From Pseudomonas sp. IAC-BECa141 (GTDB lineage: Bacteria > Pseudomonadota > Gammaproteobacteria > Pseudomonadales > Pseudomonadaceae): a stretch of DNA of 64,000 nucleotides. Made by a program: the position numbers and the translations under genes. Positions within the stretch are counted from its first letter, which is position 1. Every line of letters starts with the position of its first letter. This document shows, piece by piece, positions 35,761 through 42,690 of the stretch. The stretch spans positions 1,364,001 through 1,428,000 of the forward strand of contig NZ_CP065410.1 of the NCBI RefSeq assembly GCF_020544405.1, read 5' to 3'. Under the pieces are notes generated by a model. It was not told where the DNA came from. It worked only from the letters and a program-made list of their open reading frames with translations, and made no database searches.

Positions 35761-36360
35761 TTAGCCCACGTGAAATGTCTGACCTGTCTGCAAGCCTTCG
35801 ACACTTTTGGCGTAGGCCAATGCCACATCCGCCGCAGGAACCGGCTTGTAGCCACGGAAGTACGGGGCGTAACTGCCCATGGCTTCCACCAGCACGGTCG
35901 GGCTGATCGAGTTGACGCGCAGACCGCGTGGCAGCTCAATGGCCGCTGCGCGGACGAAACTGTCGAGCGCGCCGTTGACCAGTGCAGCCGACGCGCCGCT
36001 GCGGATCGGATCGTGGCTGAGCACGCCGGTGGTGAAGGTGAAGGATGCGCCGTCGTTGGCGAATTCGCGGCCGATCAACAGCAGATTGACCTGGCCCATC
36101 AACTTGTCTTTCAGGCCGAGGGCGAAGCTGTCTTCGGTCATTTCACCCAGCGGGGCGAAGGTTACGTTGCCGGCGGCACACACCAGCGCGTCGAACTTGC
36201 CGGTCTGTTCGAACAATTTGCGAATCGATGCGCTGTCGCTGATATCCACCTGGAAATCGCCGCTGTTGCGGCCGATACGAATGACTTCATGACGCTGCGA
36301 CAGCTCTTTGTCCACCGCCGAACCGATGGTGCCGCCGGCGCCGATCAACAGAATTTTCAT
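35761..36360 (-). CDS. Short-chain dehydrogenase/reductase
   Basis: This 199-residue short-form SDR has the nucleotide motif GAGGTIGSAV near the start and the strand end CAAGN, followed by a serine in TFTTGVLS. The usual catalytic YxxxK is replaced by GASAALVNGALDSF, so classical SDR catalysis is doubtful, as in several atypical SDR proteins. It is transcribed divergently from the LysR regulator 103 bases away, which probably controls it. Confidence 0.85.
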   Translation of the reverse strand: MKILLIGAGGTIGSAVDKELSQRHEVIRIGRNSGDFQVDISDSASIRKLFEQTGKFDALVCAAGNVTFAPLGEMTEDSFALGLKDKLMGQVNLLLIGREFANDGASFTFTTGVLSHDPIRSGASAALVNGALDSFVRAAAIELPRGLRVNSISPTVLVEAMGSYAPYFRGYKPVPAADVALAYAKSVEGLQTGQTFHVG

Positions 36361-36463
36361 CGTGATTGCCTCAAGTGATTGAACGAGGTTTCAGTCTAGA
36401 GTGGTTTTTTCTGCGGATAAGCGCACTAATGGGCAACCTTTGGTTTTCAAATGGAAACAATCC

Positions 36464-37372
36464 ATGAGCGAGATGGATGATCTGGCGGCGTTCGCGGTGT
36501 TGATCGAGGCCGGCAGTTTTACCCTGGCGGCGCAGCAATTGGGGTGCAGCAAGGGGCAGCTGTCCAAGCGTATCAGTCAGCTGGAGGCGCGTTTTTCCGT
36601 GGTGTTGCTGCAACGTACGACGCGTCGGCTGAGCCTGACCGCGGCCGGTGCGGCGTTGTTGCCACAGGCACAGGCGCTGGTAGTCCAGGTGGAGCGAGCG
36701 CGTCAGGCATTGGCGCGATTGAAGGACGACATGGCTGGCCCGGTGCGTATGACGGTTCCGGTGTCGCTGGGAGAAACGTTCTTCGACGGTCTGCTGTTGG
36801 ACTTCTCGCAGAAATACCCCGAAGTGCAGATCGAACTGGAGCTGAACAACAGCTACCGCGACCTGTCCCGCGACGGCTTCGATCTGGCGATTCGCACCGA
36901 GGTCGCCAATGACGAGCGACTGGTGGCCAGGCCGCTGCTGGCCTGGCAGGAAATGACCTGCGCCAGCCCCGCCTATCTGGAACGTTTTGGCGAACCACTG
37001 ACGCCGCAGGCACTGGCCGAACACCGTTGCCTGCTCAACAGTCATTACAGCGGTCGCGAGGAATGGCTTTATCACCAGCAACACGAACTGCTGCGGGTGC
37101 GGGTGTCGGGACCGTTCGCCAGCAATCACTACAACCTGTTGAAGAAAGCCGCATTGGCCGGCGCCGGGATCGCTCGCCTGCCGTCCTATCTGTTGCAGGC
37201 GGAATTGGCTGACGGCCGATTGCGCTGGCTCCTTCGCGATTTTCAGACCCGTCGCATGCCGATGTACCTGGTGCACCCTTATCAGGGGGGATTACCGAAA
37301 CGTACTCAGGTGCTGGCGGATTACCTGATCGGCTGGTTCAAACTCAGCGGCGAAGCGCTGGACCGGTTGTAG
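36464..37372 (+). CDS. LysR-family transcriptional regulator
   Basis: This 302-residue regulator has an N-terminal winged helix-turn-helix (MDDLAAFAVLIEAGSFTLAA, KGQLSKRISQLEARFSVVLL) and a C-terminal effector domain (RMTVPVSLGETFFDGLLLDF). It is divergent from the SDR gene, the usual arrangement for a LysR regulator and its target. The start at MSEMDD is chosen because the helix-turn-helix begins directly after it. Its 3' end overlaps that of the convergent doxX gene by 52 bases. Confidence 0.9.
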   Translation: MSEMDDLAAFAVLIEAGSFTLAAQQLGCSKGQLSKRISQLEARFSVVLLQRTTRRLSLTAAGAALLPQAQALVVQVERARQALARLKDDMAGPVRMTVPVSLGETFFDGLLLDFSQKYPEVQIELELNNSYRDLSRDGFDLAIRTEVANDERLVARPLLAWQEMTCASPAYLERFGEPLTPQALAEHRCLLNSHYSGREEWLYHQQHELLRVRVSGPFASNHYNLLKKAALAGAGIARLPSYLLQAELADGRLRWLLRDFQTRRMPMYLVHPYQGGLPKRTQVLADYLIGWFKLSGEALDRL

Positions 37373-37836
37373 TGCCTGGCGATCAAGTGATCGATCGACA
37401 CTTTGCCCGGCCCGGTGGCCATCAGGTACAGGAGAACCGCTGCCCAGGTGCCGTGAGTCGGGTAGGCGTCGGGGTAGACGAATAGCTCGATGACCAGCGT
37501 CATGCCCAGCAAGGCCAGCGCTGAAAACCGTGTGGCGAAGCCGATCAGGATCAGCATCGGGAAGAAGTGCTCGGCAAACGCCGCCATGTGCGCGGCGATG
37601 TCCGGCGACAGCAACGGCACGTGGTATTCGCTCTGGAACAGCGGAATCGTCGAGTCCGCCAGATGCGGCCAGCCAATCTGGAATGTTCCGTCGATCAGGT
37701 CGATGGCCAGGCCCTCGACCTTGGTCTGTCCGGATTTCCAGAACACCGCCGCGATGGAAAAACGCGCGATGAAGGCGATCAGGCTGTGTGGGATTTTTTC
37801 CAGCAGCGCGATGGCGCGCGCAACGAGACTGTTCAT
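37321..37836 (-). CDS. DoxX-family membrane protein of the bufferin operon
   Basis: This 171-residue protein has four hydrophobic segments of the DoxX fold (LIAFIARFSIAAVFWKSGQ, MLILIGFATRFSALALLGM). Its start overlaps the stop of the preceding bufC-type gene by four bases, so it belongs to the same unit. DoxX genes are frequent last members of MNIO/bufferin operons, where a redox or membrane role is proposed. Its last 52 bases run antisense to the end of the LysR gene. Confidence 0.82.
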   Translation of the reverse strand: MNSLVARAIALLEKIPHSLIAFIARFSIAAVFWKSGQTKVEGLAIDLIDGTFQIGWPHLADSTIPLFQSEYHVPLLSPDIAAHMAAFAEHFFPMLILIGFATRFSALALLGMTLVIELFVYPDAYPTHGTWAAVLLYLMATGPGKVSIDHLIARHYNRSSASPLSLNQPIR

Positions 37837-38591
37837 GACGACACCTTTGGATAGAAATGAGTGATGACTTGGCGGTTGATCAGCAGGGCGAGGGTCTGGC
37901 TGAGGTCGAAGGCTTCGGCGGACTCCAGCGCCTGCGTGAGTGACAGGCCGGCCTTGAGGTGGCGAATGAACTGGCCGGCGCCGCGATCCACGGCGAACAC
38001 CTCGACCTCCAGTCCGTTGCGCAGAATCAACGCGTGTTGGGCATGAAGAGGAACGATCCCGGCCAGCGTGGCGTCGTGCTGATGCGCGGCCCAGATGTCC
38101 ACTACGGCGAAGCTTGAATCGAGCAGATGCAGCGAAGGGTGCAGGCCGATGCGCAGTTCATTCAGCGTATCGGCATCTGCAAACACGGCGGCGATCCGCT
38201 CCTGACTCAAAGGCAAAGCATCGGCCGCGTGATAAGCCAGCGTGCGCAAGCGTTCCAGCCGCGCGACGTCGGCCAGATAGGGGACGCTCGCGGCAGGTTC
38301 GAATCCGCTGATGAAGTCCGCCAGCTCACTGCCGTAGTCGCTCATCAACGGACTGTGCGGCGGATGGCTTTGCACGAAAACGCCGGCCATGGCCTGGAAG
38401 AATTCGTCACCCACCAACTGCATTACCACGGGATAGCTGTCGGCCAGTGCGTTGATCAGCGAACCCTGCACGTTGTTGCGGTAGACCGCGAAACGGCTGG
38501 TCGGATCGGCGCCGTTGGCGCTGCACAAACCGTCGGGGCAGGGCAGCCCGGTATCGAGCAACGCAGCGCTGAACGCGGTTTGAGTGCTCAT
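37833..38591 (-). CDS. bufC: BufC/HvfC-type partner protein (DUF2063 N-terminal domain)
   Basis: This 252-residue protein begins with the DUF2063 domain: [36 protein letters not shown] and [20 protein letters not shown]. Such proteins partner MNIO enzymes and are thought to recognise the precursor peptide and help its modification. The gene overlaps bufB upstream and doxX downstream by four bases each. The assignment rests on the family and the complete operon order. Confidence 0.85.
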
Positions 38592-39484
38592 GGCCGAGCT
38601 CCCGCACCCAGCAACAGCGCATCGGCCTGCTGCGCTTCTGCCAACAGCACGTTAAAGGCCGGCACCTGATTGTCCCGTTCGATCAGCGTCGCCACCGGGC
38701 CGACGCGTTCCAGCGCTTGCCGGTACAACGACCAGACGGCTTGATCGATTGGCGCGCCGTGATCGTCGATCAGCAAACGATCACCGAGGCTGTCGGAGTC
38801 TTCAGCAAACCCCGCCAGATGAATCTCGCCCACTGCGCGCAGAGGTAGTGCGTCGAGATAGGCCAAGGGATCACGTTGATGGTTGATGCACGAGACGTAG
38901 ACGTTGTTCACGTCCAGTAACAGGCCGCAGCCACTGCGCCGGACGACTTCACGGATGAAATCCGCTTCGTCGATGGTCGAGCGCTCGAACGCCAGATAGG
39001 TTGCCGGGTTTTCCAGGAGCATCGGGCGTTTGAGGGTGTTCTGCACCTGGTCGATGTGGTCACAGACGCGGTTCAGCGTCGGTGTGTCGTACGCCAGAGG
39101 AAGCAAATCATTGAGAAACACCGGGCCATGGCTGGACCAGGCCAGGTGTTCGGAAAAGGATTGGGGTTGATAGCGCTCGATCAGTGCCGCCAGGCGTTTG
39201 AGGTGCTGGACATCCAGCGCGCCTTCGGTACCGATAGACAGCCCGACACCGTGCAGCGACAGCGGATACGCCTCGCGGATCAAACCCAGAAAATGATGGA
39301 ACGGGCCGCCGGCCACCATGTAGTTTTCGGCGTGGACCTCGAAGAATCCGATGTCCGGAAGAGAACCGAGCACTTCACGAAAGTGCCCGGTCTTGAGCCC
39401 CAGCCCGGCGCGGGGCGGGAGCCCGGTGAGGGCTGCCCGAGTGCGGGGGGAGGCATGGTCGCAGGAGGTGATCATGTTCGTCAC
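38588..39484 (-). CDS. bufB: BufB-type multinuclear non-heme iron oxidase (MNIO, DUF692)
   Basis: This 298-residue TIM-barrel enzyme carries the expected iron ligands: [50 protein letters not shown] and [12 protein letters not shown] enzymes of this family oxidise cysteines of a small precursor to heterocycles such as thiooxazoles, producing copper-binding bufferins. The precursor gene lies 17 bases upstream, and bufC follows with a four-base overlap. All the His, Asp and Glu motifs appear intact. Confidence 0.9.
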
Positions 39485-39500
39485 TCGGGCAGGCCGTGGA

Positions 39501-39809
39501 TCAGGACTTGGCCTTGAAGGCTTCCATCTGGCCGAAACCGGTCGGCGAGGTCTTGCTTTCGGTGGTGGTGCAGGTGCCTTTCGGTACGAATTTCCAGGCG
39601 TTGGCCTGGTAATCCATTTTCGCTGTGCCTGCGCAGGTGGTGCCGGCGCCGGCGGCGCAGTCGTTATGACCTTTCATGGCCACGCCGAAGCATTTTTCCA
39701 TGTTGCTGTTGTCGGCGGCCTGAGCGGTCGAAACGGCGGCCATGCTCAGGGCAGAACCGAGGGCCAGAACCAGGGCGGTGGCGGACAGGGTGCGGGTGGT
39801 AGCAGTCAT
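39501..39809 (-). CDS. bufA: Bufferin precursor peptide (DUF2282, BufA1 type)
   Basis: This 102-residue protein has a Sec signal peptide ([20 protein letters not shown] onward, likely cut after AQAA near 31-32) and a mature core with four cysteines at 40, 51, 59 and 80. The family motif is [15 protein letters not shown], followed by [17 protein letters not shown] and GTC. In bufferins the core Cys residues are modified by the MNIO enzyme and the product binds copper in the periplasm. GGAGAAACATC precedes the ATG at 39809, a good ribosome-binding site. The gene is separated from the livF end by a strong terminator. Confidence 0.88.
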
Positions 39810-39921
39810 GATGTTTCTCCGGTCTTTTACTTGGGTTGAACAAGCGAATGCGCTTGCTTGCCCCACTAGAGAAACGACTTGGCGATGCGTTACAGCGATC
39901 GGTAAAAGTTTTTTTCCGGCA

Positions 39922-39957
39922 CAAACAGAAAACGGCCCGAAGGCCGTTTTCTGTTTG
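39922..39957. terminator. Strong terminator after livF
   Basis: CAAACAGAAAACGGCC (39922-39937) pairs perfectly with GGCCGTTTTCTGTTTG (39942-39957) around a 4-base loop. It lies 11 bases beyond the livF stop and upstream of the bufA promoter region, separating the two leftward operons. Confidence 0.85.
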
Positions 39958-39967
39958 CTGCGATCCA

Positions 39968-40669
39968 TCAACCGCCGAGGTACGCCTCGCGTACTTTCGA
40001 GTCGGTCAGCAGCGCTTCACCGGTGCCTTGCATGACCACCCGGCCGTTCTCCAGCACGTAGGCGCGGTCAGCGATTTTCAGCGCCTGGTTGGCGTTCTGC
40101 TCGACCAGGAACACCGTCACACCGTCCTTGCGCAGCTGTTCGATGATGTCGAAGATCTGCTGGATGATGATCGGTGCCAGGCCCAGCGACGGCTCGTCGA
40201 GCAGGAGCAGTTTCGGCTTGCTCATCAGCGCGCGGCCGATGGCGAGCATTTGCTGTTCGCCGCCGGACATGGTGCCGCCACGCTGGTTGAAGCGTTCTTT
40301 CAGGCGTGGGAAAAGTCCGAGAACCTTGTCCATCTGTTCCTGATAGTCGCCCTTGTCGGTGAAGAATCCGCCCATGGACAGGTTTTCTTCGACAGTCAGG
40401 CGGGCAAACACCCGACGGCCTTCCGGCACCACGGCGATGCTTTTGCGCATGATCTGCGACGAGTCCTGGCCGACCAGTTCCTCACCCATGTAGCGGATGC
40501 TGCCACTGTGGGCCTGCGGCGAACCGCACAGCGTCATCAGCAGCGTGGACTTGCCGGCACCGTTGGCGCCGATCAGGGTCACGATCTCGCCCTGGCGGAC
40601 TTCGACGTTGACGCTGTGCAGGGCCTGGATCTTGCCGTAGAAGGTGGAAACGTTTTCGAACTGCAGCAT
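39968..40669 (-). CDS. livF: Branched-chain amino acid ABC transporter ATPase LivF/BraG
   Basis: This 233-residue ATPase has Walker [10 protein letters not shown], signature MSGGEQQML and Walker [12 protein letters not shown]. The short length and the [15 protein letters not shown] segment identify the LivF/BraG half. It is last in the braC-livHMGF operon and starts directly after the livG stop. A terminator follows. Confidence 0.93.
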
Positions 40670-41437
40670 TTACGCTTCCCCCAGGTAGGCTTTGATCACT
40701 TCAGGATTGTCGCGGATCTGTTCCGGCGTGCCGTCGGCCAGAGGCGTGCCCTGGTTGATCACGACGATGTGGTCGGAAATGCTCATGACCAGTTTCATGT
40801 CGTGTTCGATCAGCAGCACGGTCACATTGTGCTCTTCACGCAGCACGCTGATCAGCGCCTTGAGGTCTTCGGTTTCCTTCGGGTTCAGGCCGGCGGCCGG
40901 TTCGTCGAGCATGAGAATCCGCGGACGGGTCATCATGCAGCGGGCGATTTCCAGGCGACGCTGCTGACCGTAGGCCAGGGTGCCGGCGGGGCGGTTGGCG
41001 AACTCTTTCAGGTTGACCTTTTCCAGCCAGTACTCGGCGAACTCCATGGCCTCGCGCTCGCTCTTGCGAAACGCCGGGGTCTTGAACAGGCCGGACAGGA
41101 AGTTGGTGTTCAGATGACGGTGCTGGGCGATCAACAGGTTCTCGACCGCCGTCATGTCCTTGAACAACCGCACGTTCTGGAACGTGCGCACCACGCCTTT
41201 GAGGGCGATCTTGTGGCCCGGCAGGCCCTGGATCGGCTCGCCGTCCAGCAGGATGCTGCCGCCCGACGGCTGGTAGAAACCGGTCAGGCAGTTGAACACG
41301 GTGGTCTTGCCGGCGCCGTTCGGCCCGATCAGTGCCACCACCTGTTTTTCCTTCACGGTCAGGGCCACGCCGTTGACTGCCAGCAGGCCGCCGAAGCGCA
41401 TGCTCAGATTTTCGACTTTCAGGATCTCGCGGCTCAT
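40670..41437 (-). CDS. livG: Branched-chain amino acid ABC transporter ATPase LivG/BraF
   Basis: This 255-residue ATPase has Walker [21 protein letters not shown] as the signature region (LAYGQQ replaces LSGGQ, as usual in LivG), and Walker [11 protein letters not shown]. The C-terminal [15 protein letters not shown] ending is typical. It pairs with LivF to energise uptake of leucine, isoleucine and valine. The ATG overlaps the livM stop by four bases. Confidence 0.93.
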
Positions 41438-42690
41438 TTGCGCAGCTCCATGTGAGGACGTTGCATGGGCAGCAGACCTTGAGGTCGCCAGATCATCATC
41501 AGCACCATCAGGGCGCCGAACATCAACATGCGGTACTCACTGAACTCACGCATCATTTCCGGCAGCAGGATCATCACCACAGCCGCGAGAATCACGCCCA
41601 GCTGCGAGCCCATGCCACCCAGCACCACGATGGCGAGGATGATCGCCGACTCGATGAAGGTGAACGATTCCGGCGTCACCAGACCCTGACGGGCGGCGAA
41701 GAAGCTGCCGGCAAAACCGGCGAAGCTCGCGCCCAGGGTGAACGCCGACAGCTTGATCACGGTCGGGTTGAGACCCAGCGCACGGCAGGCAATCTCATCT
41801 TCACGCAGTGCTTCCCACGCACGGCCGATCGGCATGCGCAGCAGGCGGTTGATGATGAACAGCGCCGCCAGCGCCAGCAGCAGGGCAACCAGGTAGAGGA
41901 AGATCACCTTGTTGATCGAGTTGTATTCCAGGCCGAAGTACTCGTGGAAGGTTTGCAGGCCTTCCGCGGCCTTGCGTTCGAAGGTCAGGCCGAAGAACGT
42001 CGGTTTCTCGATGTTGCTGATGCCGTTCGGGCCGCCGGTGATGTCGGTCAGGTTACGCAGGAACAGGCGGATGATTTCCCCGAAACCCAGGGTCACGATC
42101 GCCAGATAGTCGCCGCGCAGACGCAATACCGGGAAACCGAGCAGGAAGCCGAACGTCGCCGCCATCAGGCCGGCAATCGGCAGGCAGATCCAGAAGCTCA
42201 GGCCATAGTAGTGCGACAGCAGCGCGTAGCTGTAGGCGCCGACGGCGTAGAAGCCGACGTAACCCAGGTCGAGCAGACCGGCCAGACCGACCACGATGTT
42301 CAGGCCCAGGCCGAGCATCACGTAGATCAGGATCAGCGTCGCGATGTCCACCGCGCCACGGGAGCCGAAGAACGGCCACACCAGCGCACCGATGATCAGC
42401 GCGATGATGAAGTAGCGCTGGGTGGTCGGCAGGGTCAGGAAGTTGCTGGCCTTGGCCGGGATCAGCGGCATGCCCGGCGACGAACGCCACGCCTTGCTGA
42501 TCTGCTGGTTGAACAGCACCCGCAGGAACATCAGCACCGAGCAGATGGCGATGGTCGCCAGAATGGCCGGGCTGGTGTTGTGCACTTCCAGGTTGATGCC
42601 GACGATGGTCAGTTTCAGTCCCAGTACCGGATAGGCCACGGCCCAGACCAGCAAGGCGCTGAACAGCGCCTGTTTAAGATTCCTGTTCAT
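41434..42690 (-). CDS. livM: Branched-chain amino acid ABC transporter permease LivM/BraE
   Basis: This 418-residue permease has about ten hydrophobic segments, with [20 protein letters not shown], then [18 protein letters not shown] and [20 protein letters not shown] as its coupling loop. The extra N-terminal region is normal for Pseudomonas BraE. It forms the channel with LivH. Four-base overlaps link it to livH and livG. Confidence 0.93.

Follow-up and report, generated by a model that had tools for sequence, protein, structure and literature searches.

The buf operon and its products

We examined a 64,000-nucleotide stretch of contig NZ_CP065410.1 from Pseudomonas sp. IAC-BECa141 (positions 1,364,001 to 1,428,000; hereafter the window) and, within it, an operon of four tandem minus-strand genes in the order bufA-bufB-bufC-bufD (39809-37321), together with a proposed extracytoplasmic function (ECF) sigma factor promoter ahead of bufA. 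The genes are as follows.

39501..39809, minus strand: bufA, Buf1 bufferin precursor (DUF2282), 102 aa, Cys at 40, 51, 59 and 80; named by Pfam
38588..39484, minus strand: bufB, MNIO bufferin maturase, 298 aa from a GTG start; named by Pfam and NCBIfam MNIO_BufB
37833..38591, minus strand: bufC, DUF2063 partner of the MNIO, 252 aa; named by Pfam
37321..37836, minus strand: bufD, DoxX-family membrane protein, 171 aa; named by Pfam

Judged by its sequence, the operon is of the Buf1 bufferin type. All four products score above the Pfam cut-offs, BufA for DUF2282 (E 1.9e-24), BufB for MbnB_TglH_ChrH (E 5.4e-103), BufC for DUF2063 (E 8.3e-27) and BufD for DoxX (E 2.7e-14). BufB reaches 379.5 bits with the NCBIfam MNIO_BufB equivalog (cut-off 310) and 230.8 with the HvfB model, below its cut-off of 360; the DUF2063 and DoxX proteins of the window likewise score below the NCBIfam HvfC and HvfX cut-offs. 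BufB also aligns with 3BWW (E 5.3e-37) and has the His, Asp, Glu and Asn that are invariant, as alignment positions, across seven MNIOs of three groups, and a comparison of BufC with solved structures gave no sequence match up to E 1. The N-terminus of BufA contains a hydrophobic stretch followed by AQA-AD, which reads by eye as a Sec-type signal peptide. The original prediction of a complete bufferin operon with a DoxX partner is borne out, with all four genes in place, a Buf1 identity that held in every sequence test run, and precursor cysteines at the four positions it named. Its account of the junctions is right for the 4-nt overlaps at bufB/bufC and bufC/bufD; the 17 bases it gave between bufA and bufB are instead 16 nt (GTG start at 39484) or 25 nt, an ATG start at 39475 also being possible. 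Neither a promoter nor a regulator figures in that prediction.

This operon type has appeared in print for Pseudomonas before, as 'Pep1' in 2021 (DUF2282, DUF692, DUF2063, DoxX; PMC8719888), which is most likely the operon type of the window and, in the part of the source drawn on here, shows no difference from it and is assigned neither regulator nor function, and as a Pseudomonas fluorescens homologue of the GIG operon, reported alongside Legionella GIG in 2017 (PMC5413113). The same four kinds of gene form gigPABT of Cupriavidus metallidurans, which is induced by copper and gold (PMC10304878). The operon type is thus not new to Pseudomonas; as for the earlier statement that the modified product of this version appears unstudied, searches of the open-licence PMC literature found no work on the chemistry of the Pseudomonas DUF2282 product. 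Buf1 is described as modified at its two central cysteines, with the first and last joined in a disulphide (PMC12452194), and a 5-thiooxazole has been assigned to this class, in which DoxX neighbours are frequent (PMC13097082). By this precedent Cys51 and Cys59 would be modified and Cys40 and Cys80 would form a disulphide, so the proposal that the spacing of all four cysteines defines the possible heterocycles narrows to the central pair.

When named genomes were scanned with BufB, 411 relatives were obtained; the best 80, all titled Pseudomonas, were compared with the window as a set of 81 operons. The gene order A-B-C-D is kept in all 81, and every precursor has exactly four cysteines spaced 11/8/21, which argues that the operon is not a chance arrangement. 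Across the genus, a DUF2282 gene is present in 91 of 149 sampled genomes.

A conserved proposed promoter upstream of bufA

The aligned upstream regions diverge, mainly except at three places: a hairpin in the leader, described below, and two short elements.

39889..39894, minus strand: proposed ECF promoter, -35 element TGTAAC; from upstream alignment and pattern search
39867..39871, minus strand: proposed ECF promoter, -10 element CTCTA; spacer to the -35 element 17 nt

The TGTAAC-N17-CTCTA pair spans 39867-39894, with its first base 85 nt from the bufA ATG, and this is the only exact occurrence in the strain's own genome. The pair is found in 81/81 upstream regions at 79-98 nt before the ATG, with a spacer that is always 17 nt even though 15-19 was permitted; an exact TGTAAC is present in 99% of them and an exact CTCTA in 94%. 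A -10 of the Caulobacter kind, CG[AT], was also tried; it occurred in 9 of the 81 upstream regions, that of the window not among them, and CTCTA was adopted in its place. A scan for sigma-70 promoters and consensus terminators listed none, and Rfam gave no match within 36300-41500.

The closest known counterpart is in Caulobacter, where mapped sigF promoters of the form GTAACC-N16-CGAA drive DUF2282 operons, among them CC3254-CC3257, whose DUF2282, DUF692, DUF2063 and DoxX genes stand in the same order as in the window (PMC3511200). Written in the frame of the sigF motif, the window reads GTAACG-N16-CTCT, so that the GTAAC core and the 16-nt spacing are common to both, whereas the SigF form GTAACC-N16-CGAA is not present before bufA of the window. 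In Caulobacter sigF and nrsF directly adjoin that operon and the -10 is CGAA; the genome of the window gave no match to NrsF (PF06532) and has CTCTA.

The proposed promoter across the genus

A strict form of the pattern gave 85 sites in 59 of the 149 genomes against 4 control sites with the reversed pattern, which argues that the strict sites are not due to chance. When the 85 sites were classed through their 79 distinct strings, 83 proved to be followed, at 63-94 nt, by a gene for an exported peptide: 48 Buf1, 32 Buf2 and 3 Met-rich peptides without cysteine. Model searches with one Buf2 peptide identified it as a BufA2 equivalog, and those with one Met-rich peptide gave no family; in our own reading, the latter resembles MXKDX peptides. 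The two sites that precede no such gene are in L209 and L211, and the L211 site (L211:5353, G041) stands before genes that by eye are cytochrome b561-like and YceI-like. This site is either a chance match or a further member of the regulon.

The three Met-rich genes (L205, L206 and L207, in G007, G089 and G096) are each the sole gene at the position that bufABCD takes in the window, follow the same promoter and encode a Cys-less exported peptide rich in Met, Lys and Asp. They are flanked by livF (94-95% identical) and a LysR gene (72-77%). Within these 11-kb stretches BufB, BufC and BufD gave no match, and BufA matched in one genome only, over its signal-peptide part (51% over 35 residues, E 3.5e-5).

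DUF2282 genes were also sorted by the promoter ahead of them, using the 107 such genes of the other 90 genomes, the window's own gene being left out; the limits for a call, at most 1 mismatch and ranges of -175 to -60 and -290 to -60, were set after inspection of the upstream regions. The promoter type of the window precedes 61 of these genes, 60 of them in genomes with the candidate ECF sigma factor introduced below and one in G035, and the sigF type precedes 24, all in genomes with NrsF. No gene has both. Among 535 shuffled upstream regions there were 6 calls of the sigF type and none of the type of the window. G049 has two DUF2282 genes (L287 and L101), one under a sigF-type promoter and the other under the type of the window. 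A separate DUF2282 clade with a MKRPYAALAATL-like start has neither promoter (L311, L314, L315, L320-L323, L325, L327, L331).

A candidate sigma factor and its putative anti-sigma factor

The candidate regulator is encoded elsewhere in the strain's genome (G000).

G000:C1:1584387-1584995: candidate ECF sigma factor, L129 type, 203 aa, unlinked, ~181 kb from buf

Its gene adjoins that of a 78-aa zinc-finger anti-sigma protein, which scores 39.2 bits with zf-HC2 (cut-off 22.2) and 62.6 with an anti-sigma family (cut-off 50). The protein contains HLMFCRNC, which fits HX3CX2C, and we take it to belong with the proteins named ZAS that carry this motif. Among the ECF sigma factors of the strain, AlgU, L128, L129, ECF41 and SigX have close relatives in G123 and G148, two small genomes that bear the promoter; L118, L119 and L121 were set aside, since the matches listed for these two genomes included no close relative of theirs. 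The promoter was sought ahead of sigma genes at 20 loci of the strain's genome, some of them not ECFs, over ~350 nt each, and none was found.

The cross-genome profile covers the L129 type alone. At E 1e-35 this ECF has matches in 91 of the 149 genomes, including 58 of the 59 with the strict promoter. Within the 91 Buf1 genomes it is present in 53/54 that have the promoter and in 19/37 that do not, and NrsF is present in 18 of the 19 Buf1 genomes that lack it (a fragment in G085; the weak NrsF matches of G051 and G079 are excluded from the count).

Linkage of the ECF to MNIO operons was searched at 97 loci, comprising 91 orthologues (30 of them with a flank of ~1.5 kb) and 6 weaker relatives. 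The zinc-finger gene is present at 91/91 orthologue loci (L242-L271, L363-L423) and at 3/6 of the weaker relatives. An MNIO gene is present at 8/97, all eight being orthologues, with seven of the HvfB type and one of the Buf2 type. In a Pseudomonas aeruginosa record (pPALO11) genes for the ECF, a zf-HC2 protein, an HvfA-like precursor, DUF692, DUF2063 and DoxX stand in a row, and this ECF is 72% identical to the candidate. The locus resembles the system proposed here in having zf-HC2 next to the ECF and TGTAAC-N17-GTCCA before the MNIO operon, and differs from it in its EGKCG/HvfA-like precursor, its HvfB-type MNIO and the adjacency of the sigma genes to the operon. With P. aeruginosa included, all nine linked loci have TGTAAC at 17 nt (eight loci) or 18 nt (one, by eye) from a CTCTA-like -10, and eight EGKCG-type precursors begin 79-84 nt after the promoter element. 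We take PA3285 to be the probable P. aeruginosa counterpart of the L129-type ECF and PA3282-PA3284 to be, probably, the linked MNIO genes, with which the values from a zinc study of P. aeruginosa would then fit. A table of that study gives PA3282-PA3284 values of 4.1 to 5.0 (PMC4542158).

In the strain's own genome both MNIO genes lie away from the ECF gene. The second MNIO, at L220:7043-8630 (G000:C1 ~2379.0-2380.6 kb), is an HvfB equivalog (420 bits against 360) that adjoins a DUF2063-like gene; no precursor gene was seen beside it, and its substrate may be encoded elsewhere. The distance of ~181 kb between the proposed sigma/anti-sigma pair and buf is a point of difference from Cupriavidus, where the sigma/anti-sigma pair rpoQ-rsqA is divergent beside gig (PMC10304878).

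Leader hairpin and neighbouring genes

39839..39858, minus strand: hairpin in the 5' leader of the bufA mRNA, from pairing and covariation across species
39921..39958, minus strand: strong hairpin 3' of livF, from RNA folding; absent from the consensus terminator scan listing
36401..37372, plus strand: LysR-family regulator, convergent, with a 52-nt overlap between its 3' end and bufD; a neighbour of the operon

In 23 leaders picked for equal loop length, 82.6% of the cells of the leader hairpin are paired, against at most 39.7% when the hairpin is slid; the covariation score is 0.375, with compensatory changes between species, and 0/500 shuffles scored as high. Five of 71 distinct leaders do not show the hairpin (L063, L064, L072, L073 and L078). 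The hairpin may stabilise the message. The hairpin after livF probably acts as a terminator between the liv genes and buf. A livF match is present at 74/80 related loci and the convergent LysR gene at 76/80, two of the four misses being loci that end at ~8.2 kb.

Assignment of the promoter and alternative explanations

We consider it probable that envelope or metal stress induces the Buf1 operon by way of a dedicated ECF sigma factor. The L129-type ECF is favoured for this role because it co-occurs with the promoter, because NrsF is found in nearly all of the Buf1 genomes that lack it, and because it is linked to MNIO operons at other loci. The promoter and its probable dedicated sigma factor are likely a new addition to a known operon type; no paper tying the TGTAAC-N17-CTCTA promoter or this ECF to MNIO operons was found in the open-licence PMC literature.

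Several observations weigh against this assignment. The ECF is also present in 33 of the 90 genomes without the strict promoter, and in G035 the promoter is present while the best match to the ECF is 32% identical. Neither promoter type precedes 22 of the 107 DUF2282 genes, all of them in ECF genomes; many of these are the separate paralogue clade, but L104 (G034) lies in an operon whose precursor is like that of the window. In G125, which has no NrsF, L355 has an exact sigF-type site at -349, beyond the range used. The -10 elements of the linked operons deviate from CTCTA by up to two bases, the ECF gene has no such promoter of its own, and a review names PA3285 among ECFs without an anti-sigma factor (PMC8999054). 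The genomes are also related, so that the sigma factor and promoter counts are not independent.

A rival reading is that the L129 type co-occurs with the promoter by ancestry only and that the promoter is read by a genus-wide sigma factor such as AlgU or SigX, or by another shared ECF (L128 type or ECF41). Relatives of all four are indeed present in the promoter-bearing G123 and G148, and G035 manages with the promoter and no L129-type ECF; a universal sigma factor would nevertheless leave unexplained why 18 of the 19 Buf1 genomes without the L129 type have NrsF and the other promoter type, and why the ECF is linked to MNIO operons, and we regard it as unlikely. That TGTAAC-N17-CTCTA is no promoter and is bound instead by a regulator such as the LysR protein encoded beside the operon at those 76 loci appears very improbable, since the half-sites are unlike, the spacer and the distance to the start codon are fixed, the core and spacing are those of a mapped ECF promoter, and the same element stands ahead of Buf2 and EGKCG operons in other neighbourhoods.

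A further question is whether the product buffers copper at all, or instead acts as an antimicrobial or soaks up hypochlorite or a metal other than copper. Pep1 showed the strongest correlation of any gene cluster with suppression of Streptomyces scabies (PMC8719888), a link that is one of correlation only, and the promoter also stands ahead of the Met-rich genes. In the ECF16 regulons (Azospira mrpX, Brucella bcrX) an ECF drives a small exported Met-rich MXKDX peptide, and peptide and sigma factor give hypochlorite resistance (PMC8315932); these regulons have an NrsF-type anti-sigma factor and MsrPQ partners, whereas the Pseudomonas Met-rich peptide tested fits no family model. Since copper is bound by Buf1 products, and related operons are responsive to copper or gold (PMC12452194, PMC10304878, PMC5413113), a function other than copper buffering seems distinctly unlikely.

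Proposed mechanism and implications

For the dedicated ECF, the proposed sequence of events is as follows. The 78-aa zinc-finger anti-sigma factor would hold the 203-aa ECF and release it on disturbance of its zinc/thiol site; the finger might lose its zinc, have its thiols oxidised or be attacked by copper. Transcription would then start from TGTAAC-N17-CTCTA, most likely read by this ECF. While BufA is still in the cytoplasm, BufB with its partner BufC is predicted to turn its Cys51 and Cys59 into thiooxazoles by oxidation, after which Sec would export BufA, the Cys40-Cys80 disulphide would close and the modified peptide would buffer copper in the periplasm. The DoxX protein may have an accessory envelope or redox role.

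With somewhat less assurance, we think it reasonably likely that one ECF/zinc-finger pair drives a Pseudomonas stress regulon that includes Buf1, Buf2 and EGKCG precursors and the Cys-less Met-rich peptide through TGTAAC-N17-CTCTA-like promoters, replacing SigF-NrsF. If the ECF stands in for SigF-NrsF, one kind of operon would be served by two regulators whose promoters share the -35 core and the spacing and differ in the -10 element. As part of this wider proposal, the Met-rich gene at the locus of the window looks as if one copper/oxidant sponge had been swapped for another.

Copper-binding peptides of the bufferin group and its MNIO relatives are widespread, and there are few bacteria in which their control is known. 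Should the proposal be correct, a single sigma factor with a zinc/thiol sensor would govern operons of the Buf1, Buf2 and EGKCG types in many Pseudomonas, which would explain operons without an adjacent regulator and provide a promoter signature for finding new members. It would also tie metallophores of the ribosomally synthesised and post-translationally modified peptide class to Met-rich peptides like those that serve in hypochlorite resistance in other bacteria.

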